Positions 2,810 to 20,201 of a stretch of DNA of 64,000 nucleotides are shown piece by piece (the stretch's first letter is position 1; every line of letters begins with the position of its first letter). Position numbers and translations under genes: made by a program. Origin of the DNA: Candidatus Gastranaerophilales bacterium. Its GTDB lineage: Bacteria; Cyanobacteriota; Vampirovibrionia; Gastranaerophilales; Gastranaerophilaceae. The stretch spans positions 1 to 64,000 of the forward strand of contig JAFQOV010000015.1 in assembly GCA_017402995.1 (NCBI GenBank). The letters run 5' to 3'. The notes beneath the pieces were generated by a model, which saw only the letters and a list, made by a program, of their open reading frames with translations, was not told the origin of the DNA and ran no database searches.

Positions 2810-3619
2810 ATGAAAATTTTAATTTCTAATGATGACGGAATTGCTGCTGAAGGTATTAAAGCCTTAATGCAAAATCTTGCAAAAGAACATGACGTATATG
2901 TTGTTGCACCTGATAGAGAACGTTCTGCCGCTGGGCATTCTTTAACTTTGCATTCTCCAATTCGAGTTGAAGAATTAGAACCACAATACGGAGTAAAACG
3001 CGCATGGGTCACAAACGGAACCCCAGGGGATTGTGTTAAAATCGGAATTTGCGCTCTTTTAAAACAAGAAGAATTGCCTGACATTGTAATTTCAGGGATT
3101 AACCACGGACCAAATTTAGGAACAGATATTTTATATTCAGGAACTGTTAGTTGCGCTCTTGAGGCTGCAATGCTTGATTATCCAGCAATTGCTGTTTCAA
3201 TGACATCAATGACACCTGATCCAATATATTTTGATTCAACAGCAAAATTCATTTGCAAATTCTTGCCAAAAATCAAAAATGTTTCGTTCCCTAAAAAATC
3301 AATTTTAAACGTTAACGTTCCAGCTCTTGAAGAAGAAGATATTGCAGGGGTTGAAATTACAAAGCTTGGCACAAAAATGTTTACAGATAATTACGACAAG
3401 CGAATTGATCCAAGAGGAAAAATTTATTATTGGATGGCTGGCGAATTGACATCTAAACATGAAGAAGATGGAACAGATATCGCTGCGGTGCGTGCAAATC
3501 GCATTTCAATCACACCTGTAACATTTGAAATGACCCACAAAAATATTATGGCAGAATTAGAACATGAATTTTGCCCTGGGGGCATTTGCACTTGGTATGG
3601 GTATGATGCCCAAAAATAA
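2810..3619 (+). CDS. surE: 5'/3'-nucleotidase SurE
   Basis: 269 aa from the ATG; an in-frame GTG at 2804 would add two residues. SurE dephosphorylates nucleoside monophosphates using a divalent metal. The metal-site residues are all present: Asp8-Asp9 (MKILISNDDGI), Ser39 (RERSAAGHS) and Asn98 (SGINHGPNLGTD). The TNGTPGDCV segment is also typical, and the length is normal for the family. AGGA lies upstream, and TATACT at about 2774-2779 is a plausible -10. The stop codon TAA is itself the first triplet of a repeated GC-rich sequence that continues downstream. Confidence 0.96.
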   Translation: MKILISNDDGIAAEGIKALMQNLAKEHDVYVVAPDRERSAAGHSLTLHSPIRVEELEPQYGVKRAWVTNGTPGDCVKIGICALLKQEELPDIVISGINHGPNLGTDILYSGTVSCALEAAMLDYPAIAVSMTSMTPDPIYFDSTAKFICKFLPKIKNVSFPKKSILNVNVPALEEEDIAGVEITKLGTKMFTDNYDKRIDPRGKIYYWMAGELTSKHEEDGTDIAAVRANRISITPVTFEMTHKNIMAELEHEFCPGGICTWYGYDAQK

Positions 3620-3842
3620 CCCGAACAAAGCGAAGCGTAGTGCGACGCACTAGCTGAGCAAAGTGAGGGCAGAAGGATATGGAAAACTGGGTCGGAATGT
3701 TGAATTCCGACCCAGTTTGGAATTGGACTATGGCGACGTGGGATAATCGAGCTTTTGAGCGACTGCGATAGCAAAAGCGAAAACAAGCGAGATACCCACA
3801 GGAGCAAAGGCTTAACCCGAACAAAGCGAAGCGTAAAACCAA
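3617..3842. repeat. GC-rich repeat block A, starting on the surE stop codon
   Basis: A 23-nt sequence occurs identically at 3617-3639 and 3813-3835, bracketing about 170 bp. Its first three bases are the surE stop codon. Inside are a palindrome TAGTGCGACGCACTA (3637-3651), a 15-bp perfect hairpin (3684-3698 with 3704-3718) and a segment at 3732-3805 whose ends match block B near 10.3 kb. The base composition is much richer in GC than the neighbouring genes. Reading frames through it are incidental. It occupies the whole gap between surE and the convergent kinase-like gene. Confidence 0.8.
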
Positions 3843-8443: not shown

Positions 8444-10171
8444 ATGAGCAATGCTTTAATCAGTTTTTATCATAATTTAGAAGAACCGATAATTATTTAT
8501 GATAGAAAGATGGATATTTTATATCATAATCTTTCTTTTTCAAAAATTTTCGGCGATTTTAACAATTCAAAAGGCTTTCAATGTCTTTCAAAATTGGCAT
8601 ATAAATTTGCATATCAAATGTGCTTTTTAAAATCCGAAGACTTAAGAACCTACTGCCCCGCAATTGCGGCTTTAGAGAAAGATGTTAACTACACAAGTTT
8701 TGCAACATATCAAAAAGACGAAGACAAATTTTTTCATTTCATGATTAAAGCGTTTAGCGTTAAAAAGCGTTATCGTGTTGTCTATTTTTACGATATTACA
8801 AACGAGCTTCGCGGTGAAAAATTAAAAGAAGAAAACGAACGCTTAAGAATTCAAAACATAGAATTTTTAAACACAAACTCAAAAGCGCAAAACCAAGCTG
8901 TTAAAATGGCGCTTTTAAACCGCATTTCAATTAGCATTAAAAACGAACTTGATATTAAAACTTTAATTGAAAAATCCCTTCGCGAATTGAGCATTGTTTT
9001 TGGGGCAAATAAAAGCTATTTCGCCGAATTTAACAAAAACGATTTCACAATTAAATATACATATCCAGAGGTTTTCGCCCCACAAATCAACGAAATTGTA
9101 TCTTATTCAAAAGCGATTGTCGACGATTTGCACATTGGAATTAATTCAATTCAAACATGTTTAAAAGAACATGATGGCGCGTCTATTCCATTATTAAATT
9201 CGACCACAAGAATTATTATGCCGATTTTGAAAAATTCGCAACTCTATGGAATTGCAGTTATTTTCACTCCAAGAAAAGAAATTACGGAGCTTGAGCGCGA
9301 GCTTTTGGTCGGGATTTCAATGCAAGTTTCTTCATCTTTAATTCAAGCGAGCTTATTCCACCAAATTTCACAAAAAAATGAAGAATTAGAGCTTGCGTTT
9401 AAAGAATTAAAAGAAGCACAACTGCAATTGATTAACTCAGAAAAAATGGCGTCACTAGGTCAATTGGTTGCCTCAGTTGCCCATGAAATTAATACTCCAT
9501 TGAGTGCAATTAACGCAAATAATGAAATTTTAGACAAAGTTTGCGAGAAATTTAATGAAAATAATCTTGAAATTTTAAAAGAGATTAATTCCGTTGATAA
9601 AGAAGCAATTAAAAGAATTACAAATATTGTACAGTCGCTGAAACGCTTTGTACGACTAGACGAAACAACTCAACAAGAGGCAAATATCAACCAAGAGCTT
9701 GATTTAACCCTTGATTTAATTAGGCACAAAACCAAAAATGGCTTTGATATCATCAAAGAATATTCAAATATTCCACTTGTAGAGTGCTATCCAAACATGT
9801 TAAATCAAGTATTTTTAAATATTTTAATGAACGCACTGCATTCTATTGAAGATATTAAAAAAGAAAATCCTGATTATTTAGGAAAAATCAAACTAAAAAC
9901 CCAAGTCTCAGACGACTTTTTGCAAATCAGTATTTTAGATAATGGAAAAGGTATTAAAGAAGAAGACAAAGAAAAAGTTTTCCAAGCTGGTTACACAACC
10001 AAAAAGAAAGGTGAAGGAACGGGGCTGGGGCTTGCAATTTGCAAAAAAATTATTGAAAAGCACCAAGGTGAAATTTTGTTTGATAGTGGGGAAATTGGCT
10101 TTGAACCTGAGTTCAAGACAATTTTTATAATTCATATTCCATTAAAAATAAAAAATGCTTGCATGGAATAA
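8444..10171 (+). CDS. PAS-GAF sensor histidine kinase
   Basis: 575 aa, soluble. A PAS-like domain (about 1-118) is followed by a linker helix, a GAF-like domain (about 155-305), a coiled coil, then HisKA with SEKMASLGQLVASVAHEINT (His347) and a complete HATPase: N-box FLNILMNALHSIED, G1 ISILDNGKGI, G2 GEGTGLGLAI. All catalytic motifs are intact, in contrast to the kinase-like gene at 3.8 kb. No transmembrane helix is seen, so it should sense cytoplasmic signals. Several Cys lie in the N-terminal domain (CLSK, MCFLK, TYCPA), which could bind a cofactor. No response regulator is adjacent; the coiled-coil HTH gene directly upstream is a possible partner. Confidence 0.93.
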   Translation: MSNALISFYHNLEEPIIIYDRKMDILYHNLSFSKIFGDFNNSKGFQCLSKLAYKFAYQMCFLKSEDLRTYCPAIAALEKDVNYTSFATYQKDEDKFFHFMIKAFSVKKRYRVVYFYDITNELRGEKLKEENERLRIQNIEFLNTNSKAQNQAVKMALLNRISISIKNELDIKTLIEKSLRELSIVFGANKSYFAEFNKNDFTIKYTYPEVFAPQINEIVSYSKAIVDDLHIGINSIQTCLKEHDGASIPLLNSTTRIIMPILKNSQLYGIAVIFTPRKEITELERELLVGISMQVSSSLIQASLFHQISQKNEELELAFKELKEAQLQLINSEKMASLGQLVASVAHEINTPLSAINANNEILDKVCEKFNENNLEILKEINSVDKEAIKRITNIVQSLKRFVRLDETTQQEANINQELDLTLDLIRHKTKNGFDIIKEYSNIPLVECYPNMLNQVFLNILMNALHSIEDIKKENPDYLGKIKLKTQVSDDFLQISILDNGKGIKEEDKEKVFQAGYTTKKKGEGTGLGLAICKKIIEKHQGEILFDSGEIGFEPEFKTIFIIHIPLKIKNACME

Positions 10172-10207
10172 TTGATTTGTTATCATGTGAATACAGCTAA
10201 ATAAAAT

Positions 10208-10384
10208 GCCCTGGTAGCTCAGCTGAAAAGCGTAAGCCAGAGCGCAGTCGATGAGGCAAAGCCTCAGCGACAAAGCAATTGATAGGCGACGTAGGATAAT
10301 CGAGCGAATTTGCGACAGCGATAGCGAAGCAAATTGATAAGCGAGATACCCACAGGAGCCATAAATGAAATTTTAATAATACAA
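10208..10384. repeat. GC-rich repeat block B with copy of the tRNA-Arg 5' end
   Basis: GCCCTGGTAGCTCAGCTG at 10208-10225 is identical to the first 18 nt of the tRNA-Arg gene 177 bp further on, but then departs into GC-rich sequence, so it cannot fold as a tRNA. The segment 10285-10359 shares its two ends with block A (3732-3805): GGCGACGT-GGATAATCGAGC at the left and AAGCGAGATACCCACAGGAG at the right, with a diverged middle. Together with 10172-10207 and the sequences up to 10809 it fills a gene-poor region. Confidence 0.8.
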
Positions 10385-10458
10385 GCCCTGGTAGCTCAGC
10401 TGGATAGAGCAACTGCCTTCTAAGCAGTAGGTCTCGCGTTCGAATCGCGACCAGGGTA
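10385..10458 (+). tRNA. tRNA-Arg (anticodon TCT)
   Basis: The cloverleaf is complete: acceptor GCCCTGG with CCAGGGT (ending in a G-U pair), D-arm GCTC/GAGC, anticodon stem ACTGC/GCAGT with loop CTTCTAA (anticodon TCT, reads AGA), five-base variable loop and T-arm TCGCG-TTCGAAT-CGCGA. CCA is not encoded. An intrinsic terminator follows within 10 nt. Partial copies of both its 5' and 3' ends lie on either side. Confidence 0.95.
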
Positions 10459-10464
10459 GATTTT

Positions 10465-10488
10465 AAAAGAGCCTTCGGGCTCTTTTTT
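10465..10488 (+). terminator. Intrinsic terminator of tRNA-Arg
   Basis: AAAAGAGCC-TTCG-GGCTCTTTTTT: a strong stem with a UUCG tetraloop and T-run immediately after the tRNA. Confidence 0.9.
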
Positions 10489-10675
10489 AGTGCCATGATG
10501 TGATGAGAACGCAGCGTTCGAGCGGATTTTGACTAGGGCGCCGTGTGAGCGAAAGCGAACCCAGCCCGTATGTTCAAGAAAGTTTATGAAATGAAGTTTT
10601 TGCATAAGCAAAAACGAAATGAAATGCTAAACTTTCGAGTTGTCAAAATTCAAGACAATCGCGACCAGGGTAGAT
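10489..10675. repeat. GC-rich/hairpin block D ending in a copy of the tRNA-Arg 3' end
   Basis: AATCGCGACCAGGGTAGAT at 10657-10675 repeats 10443-10461, which is the tRNA 3' end and its trailer, 214 bp away. Between them is GC-rich sequence of the same style as the other blocks (GTGAGCGAAAGCGAACCC) and a nested hairpin: outer arms 10578-10586/10628-10636, inner arms 10596-10603/10608-10615. No convincing gene is present. Confidence 0.75.
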
Positions 10676-10710
10676 AAAAAAGAGACAGGTTTTTGCCTAG
10701 TCTCTTTTTT
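10676..10710 (+). terminator. Second intrinsic terminator after the tRNA-Arg 3' copy
   Basis: AAAAAAGAGAC and GTCTCTTTTTT pair around an AGG/CCT-extended loop. It follows the duplicated tRNA 3' end just as the first terminator follows the real tRNA, although the stem sequence differs. Confidence 0.8.
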
Positions 10711-10809
10711 ATTTACATATAAATTACCAAAAAGCACAACAAAAGCATGGAAAACAATGCTATAATAGATAAATTCAATAAACAACATAAAAAACAGGTG
10801 GGGGAAATA

Positions 10810-17357: not shown

Positions 17358-19820
<2,463 letters not shown>

Positions 19821-19823
<3 letters not shown>

Positions 19824-20165
19824 ACCCAAAAGGCAAGGAGCCGACGACAGTCGAGCGAACGCCTTGAGGGCATAAAGAGTGTGAGGGCGTGACGGCAAAG
19901 CGAAGAGCTTTGGCGAACAGCCCGAAACCGTTCTAAGCCGCCGTTGCGACTGAAGCGCAAGCGCGAAAGGAGCGAAGAAATCTTTGATTTCACAGGCGGT
20001 AGACCCGAAAGGCAAGGAGCCGACGACAGTCGAGCGAACGCCTTGAGGGCAAAGGTGTGTGAAGCGCGTCGGCAGCCGCGTTGAGCTGGTGCCGAGCGCG
20101 AAATCCGTACCCGAGCAAAGCGAATTGCGGCACGACTGTGCCCAATGAGCAAAGCGAGGGCATAA
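19821..20165. repeat. GC-rich repeat block C, starting on the gyrB stop codon
   Basis: A 52-nt unit beginning TAGACCC occurs at 19821-19872 and 20000-20051, 51 of 52 identical and 179 bp apart. The first copy begins with the gyrB stop codon. The rest contains runs of the same word family seen in block A (GAGCAAAGCGAGGGC at 20150-20164). Composition is far more GC-rich than the flanking genes. Open frames on either strand are judged to be by-products of repeat composition. Confidence 0.85.
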
Positions 20166-20172
20166 CAATATC

Positions 20173-20201
20173 AAAAAACCTCGGAACAACCGAGGTTTTT
20201 T
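20173..20201. terminator. Bidirectional terminator between gyrB and a convergent gene
   Basis: AAAAAACCTCGG and CCGAGGTTTTTT pair around AACAA, giving A-stem-T on both strands. Confidence 0.92.

Follow-up and report, generated by a model that had tools for sequence, protein, structure and literature searches.

How does an intact tRNA gene come to lie between copies of its own two ends? The question is raised by the tRNA-Arg(tct) gene of a Candidatus Gastranaerophilales bacterium (a gut-dwelling, non-photosynthetic relative of the cyanobacteria whose genome is metagenome-assembled), located in the 64,000-nt stretch of contig JAFQOV010000015.1 analysed here (the window). The gene, at 10385–10458, is intact as judged by ARAGORN and by Rfam (RF00005, 67.5 bits). 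Its first 18 nucleotides, GCCCTGGTAGCTCAGCTG, recur upstream (10208–10225 matching 10385–10402, 18/18 identity, spacing 177), and the stretch from the T-loop into the trailer, AATCGCGACCAGGGTAGAT, recurs downstream (10657–10675 matching 10443–10461, 19/19 identity, spacing 214), leaving gaps of 159 bp on the 5′ side and 195 bp on the 3′ side. Behind the far 3′ copy come a 17-nt inverted repeat (10670–10686/10700–10716) and a T-run. An earlier note on this DNA had described copied ends around an undamaged tRNA, with a terminator belonging to the downstream copy; all of this holds, and every coordinate that it gave is correct.

Organisation of the tRNA-Arg(tct) locus

Exact repeats of at least 15 nt at spacings of 40–1000 number only six in the 64 kb, and both tRNA-Arg end copies are among them. 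Four of the six bound GC-rich blocks, in a window whose background is 31.6% GC. The features discussed below are as follows, all on the + strand.

3732–3805 (+): further element A core, within a 23-nt direct repeat (3617–3639 and 3813–3835); from sequence match
10159–10186 (+): original tRNA promoter, TTGCAT-16-TATCAT, now ahead of the displaced 5′ copy; read from the sequence
10208–10225 (+): copy of tRNA-Arg nucleotides 1–18, from the 5′ end to the D-loop; 18/18 against 10385–10402
10226–10359 (+): element A, payload of the 5′ unit, with a conserved core at 10285–10359 (GGCGACGTAGGATAATCGAGC..GAGATACCCACAGGAGC); from own-genome matches and covariation
10365–10378 (+): AT motif ATGAAATTTTAATA (consensus TGAMAATTRAATA) just 5′ of the intact tRNA; common to 5′ units
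10385–10458 (+): tRNA-Arg(tct), intact; ARAGORN and Rfam RF00005
10466–10488 (+): terminator of the intact tRNA; hairpin in the predicted fold, and sequence
10502–10521 (+): T-arm fold-back, consisting of GATGAGAACGC (near-antisense), a one-base loop (A) and GCGTTCGA (sense T-arm and T-loop); from the sequence
10522–10656 (+): element B, which the 3′ unit carries as payload, inserted at the T-loop of the displaced end; from matches elsewhere and pair changes
10657–10675 (+): tRNA copy running from the T-loop through the 3′ end and 3 nt into the trailer; 19/19 against 10443–10461
10670–10716 (+): second terminator, behind the displaced 3′ copy; inverted repeat and fold

The original promoter and leader remain with the displaced 5′ copy, and the intact tRNA-Arg now has a new leader. 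This promoter is not picked up by a consensus promoter scan; it matches the TTGCAN-16/17-TATNAT sequence that precedes the tRNA in those congeners whose 5′ site is empty. The AT motif sits 4–12 nt before the intact tRNA in 5′ units, and its common form has 0 matches in the window against 0.20 expected. Elsewhere in the window, a GC-rich composite repeat block (up to 68%) with a 53-nt direct repeat, at 19783–20200, starts immediately at the stop codon that ends a gyrB-like topoisomerase gene (17373–19823).

End copies at other tRNA genes

The earlier note proposed looking for similar copies at other tRNA genes of the genome, and a survey of the stretches around all 36 finds them at 16, on at least one side. 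On the 5′ side seven tRNAs (Thr-ggt, Val-tac, Ala-tgc, Gly-tcc, Met, Arg-tct and Asn) have nucleotides 1 to 13–18 recurring upstream at −89 to −210. On the 3′ side there are eleven (Lys, Phe, Asp, Arg-tct, Arg-acg, Asn, Gly-gcc, Met, Pro-ggg, Leu-tag and Glu), with copies of 12–57 nt downstream, some of which include trailer and terminator. Two genes, Arg-tct and Asn, have copies on both sides.

A stricter test required at least 12 nt inside the tRNA, with neighbouring tRNAs masked, and took as its control each flank paired with another tRNA. By this test 7 (5′) and 8 (3′) of the 36 genes have copies of their own ends, against 0.13 per set in the mispaired control, and this excludes an origin by chance or low complexity. 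Antisense copies of tRNA arms are likewise in excess (4 on the 5′ side and 8 on the 3′ side, against 0.47 and 0.80). Nor is the arrangement an assembly artefact, since it recurs in independent metagenome-assembled genomes (MAGs) and, for its 3′ side, in a finished E. coli genome.

Applied to four other genomes, the same test finds copies (5′ plus 3′) at 3+1 of 38 tRNAs in the congener G007 and at 1+2 of 43 in G045, which belongs to a different family of the order. G033, from a different genus of the family, has 0+0 of 43, and G057, from a different order, 0+0 of 42. In stretches L274, L282 and L263 of G045, a member of a distant family, own-end copies and the GGCTCATTCTTCGCC core were both seen.

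Two unrelated structured elements

The blocks enclosed by the copies, elements A and B, are unrelated to each other and both are dispersed elsewhere. Element A has 13 matches in its own genome; it is present inside RNase P RNA, behind tRNA-Leu and once again in the window, at 3732–3805. A search of the public genome set with its pattern gives 78 stretches, in which all named groups are Candidatus Gastranaerophilales, Melainabacteria or Cyanobacteria. The upstream block is predicted to fold (z = −3.7), and across 62 distinct A cores the two positions that the search pattern leaves unspecified form C-G in 33, T-A in 28 and T-G in one, giving C-G/T-A covariation in 61 of the 62. Among the 18 species of the genus compared for RNase P RNA (G000, with its rnpB on L328, and 17 congeners), 8 have A-related inserts of roughly 80–190 nt at a single position and 10 have none.

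Element B is found also behind tRNA-Glu, adjoining tmRNA, and behind tRNA-Asp, where it is tandem. With its terminators included, the downstream block has a fold z of −6.3, and of 29 predicted pairs in B, 14 have changed on both sides and still pair, in an alignment in which one B sequence is the reverse complement from L010. An Rfam family for A, B or the 5′ units was sought and rejected, only tRNA, tmRNA and RNase P scoring above noise.

A mirror-symmetric unit plan

Most units follow one plan, in which the intact tRNA is succeeded by a spacer, an antisense copy of the D- or T-arm, a payload and the displaced tRNA end. The short 5′ unit reads tRNA(1–18), a CC-hairpin-A-rich linker, tRNA(about 24–29), antisense of tRNA(29–11), the AT motif and the intact tRNA. 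The 3′ unit reads intact tRNA, trailer (usually with a terminator), antisense T-arm, sense T-arm to T-loop, payload, T-loop to 3′ end and, often, a second terminator. The two are mirror images. In one congener (G022) the antisense segment ATGCTCTATCCAGCTGAG is a perfect 18-nt complement of the tRNA. The window 3′ unit has its parts in the same order (near-antisense, one-base loop, sense arm, element B and the end copy), and its fold-back motif is found also in G021, G003, G016 and G006 and resembles that at E. coli tyrT. The A-type 5′ units, including that in the window, lack an antisense arm.

The order of end, antisense and end is what template switching at tRNA hairpins would produce, and pure DNA rearrangement could have given tandem inversion duplications into which unrelated repeats drifted later. 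The fold-back points, just inside the D- and T-arms, agree with such an origin, and the E. coli case fits it too. Drift, however, does not account for one AT motif recurring at different tRNAs, nor for a GGCTCATAAATTCGCC-type core at several tRNAs and again in another family (G045), and we regard rearrangement on its own as very unlikely.

Empty and filled sites in related species

The orthologous locus was located through the histidine kinase gene (HisKA, HATPase_c) ahead of the tRNA, and the tRNA is covered in 23 genomes including the source; these are MAGs, and the comparison is between species. The 5′ site is filled in 9 of the 23 by threshold, or 10 if the indel-bearing tandem copies of G022, recognised by eye, are counted. 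It is empty in about 13, among them G006 and G010, in which the AT motif of a decayed unit is kept despite the decay of the copy. Filled sites hold differing payloads, namely element A, short hairpin units with antisense, and tandem arrays. Counts of filled 3′ sites are lower bounds, several contigs ending there and the threshold missing some units visible by eye. On the kinase tree, of which only 8 of 22 inner branches are well supported, the 5′ site has changed state at least seven times and the 3′ site at least six.

The clearest comparison is between G004 and G001, in which promoter, leader and tRNA follow one another, and their close relative G013, in which a matching promoter and leader are followed by a copy of the tRNA 5′ end and two tandem 170-nt A units. 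The empty site, which shows the state before insertion exactly, has one copy of the repeat, as expected of target-site duplication. Units are also stacked: in G020 and G002 a short hairpin unit comes after an A unit, and in G003 two different 3′ units stand in series. In G015 (L035, near 3411–3590) a truncated GCGTCCG-type tRNA-Arg precedes a complete tRNA-Arg that has a different acceptor stem (GCCTCGG) and agrees with the upstream copy; some species seem to have had their tRNA-Arg gene replaced at this locus.

The earlier note would have given up insertion had all relatives carried the same fragments in fixed blocks; the sites prove to be empty or differently filled, the opposite outcome. 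Since A and B are unrelated and both found elsewhere, and since the sites of relatives are empty or otherwise filled, the evidence supports two independent insertions. Of the two origins suggested in that note, two insertions or a duplication-insertion mechanism, what finds support is two independent insertions with duplication of tRNA ends; the blocks themselves are structured repeats of ~130 nt and not the remnants of large islands.

A functional role for the units could also be considered, as RtT-like small RNAs or as regulatory leaders whose antisense arm pairs with the copy or the true tRNA and controls maturation. The architecture is conserved while the stems vary, A and B covary, the 5′ unit is placed between promoter and tRNA, D-arm antisense is perfect over up to 16–18 nt, and the E. 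coli RtT RNAs are tied to amino-acid stress (PMC4986893). Yet presence differs between close species at one and the same tRNA, payloads are swapped for unrelated ones, and 3′ units lie mostly behind a terminator, so that we consider this explanation quite improbable.

Proposed mechanism

Our best reading, held with moderate confidence, is the recurrent insertion of non-autonomous structured repeats accompanied by duplication of tRNA ends. Insertion is supported because payloads exchange freely, because one payload is found in two orientations (before tRNA-Thr in one, behind tRNA-Phe in the opposite) and because sites are empty in relatives. Part of each unit is made on site, since the copies nearly always match the local tRNA. 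Plain transposition explains neither copies and antisense arms matched to the local tRNA nor the variable length of the duplication. A transposon with target-site duplication would have conserved termini and a fixed duplication length; neither is found, the duplications running from 13 to about 62 nt.

Under this reading of recurrent insertion, elements such as A and B would be mobilised in trans, A entering the D-loop from the 5′ side and B the T-loop from the 3′ side. Insertion may proceed via the folded tRNA gene, single-stranded or as a cruciform. Strand switching at the hairpin of the D- or T-arm, or target-primed repair synthesis there, could then give rise to the antisense arm and the duplicated end. 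Each event would be resolved such that a complete tRNA stays inside while the displaced end, with the original promoter or a terminator, is left outside. To judge from its position between promoter and tRNA, the 5′ unit must be transcribed and removed from the precursor, conceivably by RNase P, whose action a cut in the AT motif may precede. The 3′ unit, lying mostly beyond the terminator, is probably silent.

A more specific proposal, which we offer tentatively and think unlikely, is that the units are mobile structured elements of one class, which recognise a tRNA gene through base pairing with its D- or T-arm, the antisense arm serving as guide. They would insert in mirrored fashion at either end and restore the tRNA, and one relic of the class would be the tyrT repeats of E. 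coli.

Candidate enzymes and carriers

The search for a mobilising enzyme found none for the units. The only Y1_Tnp gene among 28 congeners, that of the source species, encodes a RAYT-like Y1 transposase of 173 aa (L317:1450–1971) and is flanked by GTAGACTAAAGTCTAC (GTAGACT) palindromes; the other 27 have none, and units are present in many. A RAYT/Y1 mobiliser was rejected, this sole gene being species-specific and flanked by other palindromes. Carriage by phage was likewise rejected: of 2.9 million viral contigs, 2 contain element A and none contains element B.

All five genomes tested for tyrosine integrases have them, whether or not they carry units. When such an enzyme crosses over in the T- or D-loop, the tRNA stays whole and its end is displaced (attL/attR); with later loss of the island, the copies could be scars of this process. 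Direct repeats that span the T-loop to the 3′ end do resemble classical tRNA attachment sites, and partial tRNA genes from integration of this kind are common (PMC9897764). The intervals, however, are only about 85–200 bp and contain repeat families common to several tRNAs and non-tRNA sites, and tandem arrays and antisense arms speak against scars as well. Integrase counts do not track unit counts either, G033 having four integrases and no end copies. The 159 and 195 bp between the window copies leave no room for an integrase gene, and no long integrase-bearing island lies between tRNA end and copy at the tRNA-Arg loci examined. We judge the scar explanation to be quite unlikely.

Comparison with known systems

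Short dispersed structured repeats, some of them in structural RNA genes, include REP/REPIN with RAYT, the Rickettsia RPE and the cyanobacterial STRR in rnpB. The units differ from these in having long end duplications that match the local tRNA and in that the only RAYT-like gene is species-specific; Y1_Tnp is confined to 1 of 28 congeners though units are widespread. Closer in arrangement are the att scars of tRNA-targeting integrases (PMC9897764), where, too, the tRNA is intact and its displaced end lies some way off. The present units differ in their size (about 85–200 bp), in their repeat-family content and antisense arms, in having no island and in affecting both ends of one tRNA.

The closest likeness is to the 178-bp repeats at E. 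coli tyrT/tyrV (rttR, tpr; RtT RF00391), which share with the B unit of the window the 19-nt copy from T-loop to 3′ end, the order of elements and the insertion point in the T-loop. In K-12 tyrT (L316) the 178-nt repeats stand in tandem, each made up of the antisense T-arm GGGGAAGGATGAGAAG, the sense T-arm AAGGTTCGA, a GC-rich payload and, as 19-nt end copy, AATCCTTCCCCCACCACCA. The succession of tRNA, antisense T-arm, sense T-arm, payload and 3′ copy describes equally the window at 10443–10675 and the tRNA-Asn and tRNA-Met units. A GATGAGAA motif common to the units and E. coli was also noticed by eye. The RtT model RF00391 nevertheless finds no match at E ≤ 0.1 in 28 genomes of the genus, its E. 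coli control being found. Membership of RtT is rejected by this covariance model, and the likeness is one, on the 3′ side, of how units work or arise.

PMC4986893, citing Bosl and Kersten (1991), describes rtT RNA as released from transcripts of tyrT and other tRNA operons and links it to the stringent response. Against such release from the tRNA transcript speaks, as far as sequence can tell, the terminator between tRNA and B. At tyrT, the sole E. coli locus read, there are 3′ units only and no terminator was seen between tRNA and unit. The Gastranaerophilales, in contrast, have a terminator before B, 5′ mirror units, many affected tRNAs and polymorphic sites. A limited literature search found no paper describing these repeats or a 5′ mirror version.

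The tyrT repeats have reportedly been known since the 1970s, through Egan and Landy, and their origin has stayed open since then because they were a single, fixed case. We know of no 5′ mirror version of a repeat of this type. This bacterium tolerates inserts of 85–350 nt between tRNA promoter and tRNA, and also inserts inside RNase P RNA, while keeping these essential RNA genes. With one plan at 16 of 36 tRNA genes and on both sides, in empty, freshly tandem and decayed states across two dozen related species, natural variation gives access to gain, loss and mechanism. What is new relative to the tyrT case is that nearly half of the tRNA genes are affected, and that the plan has a mirrored 5′ form.
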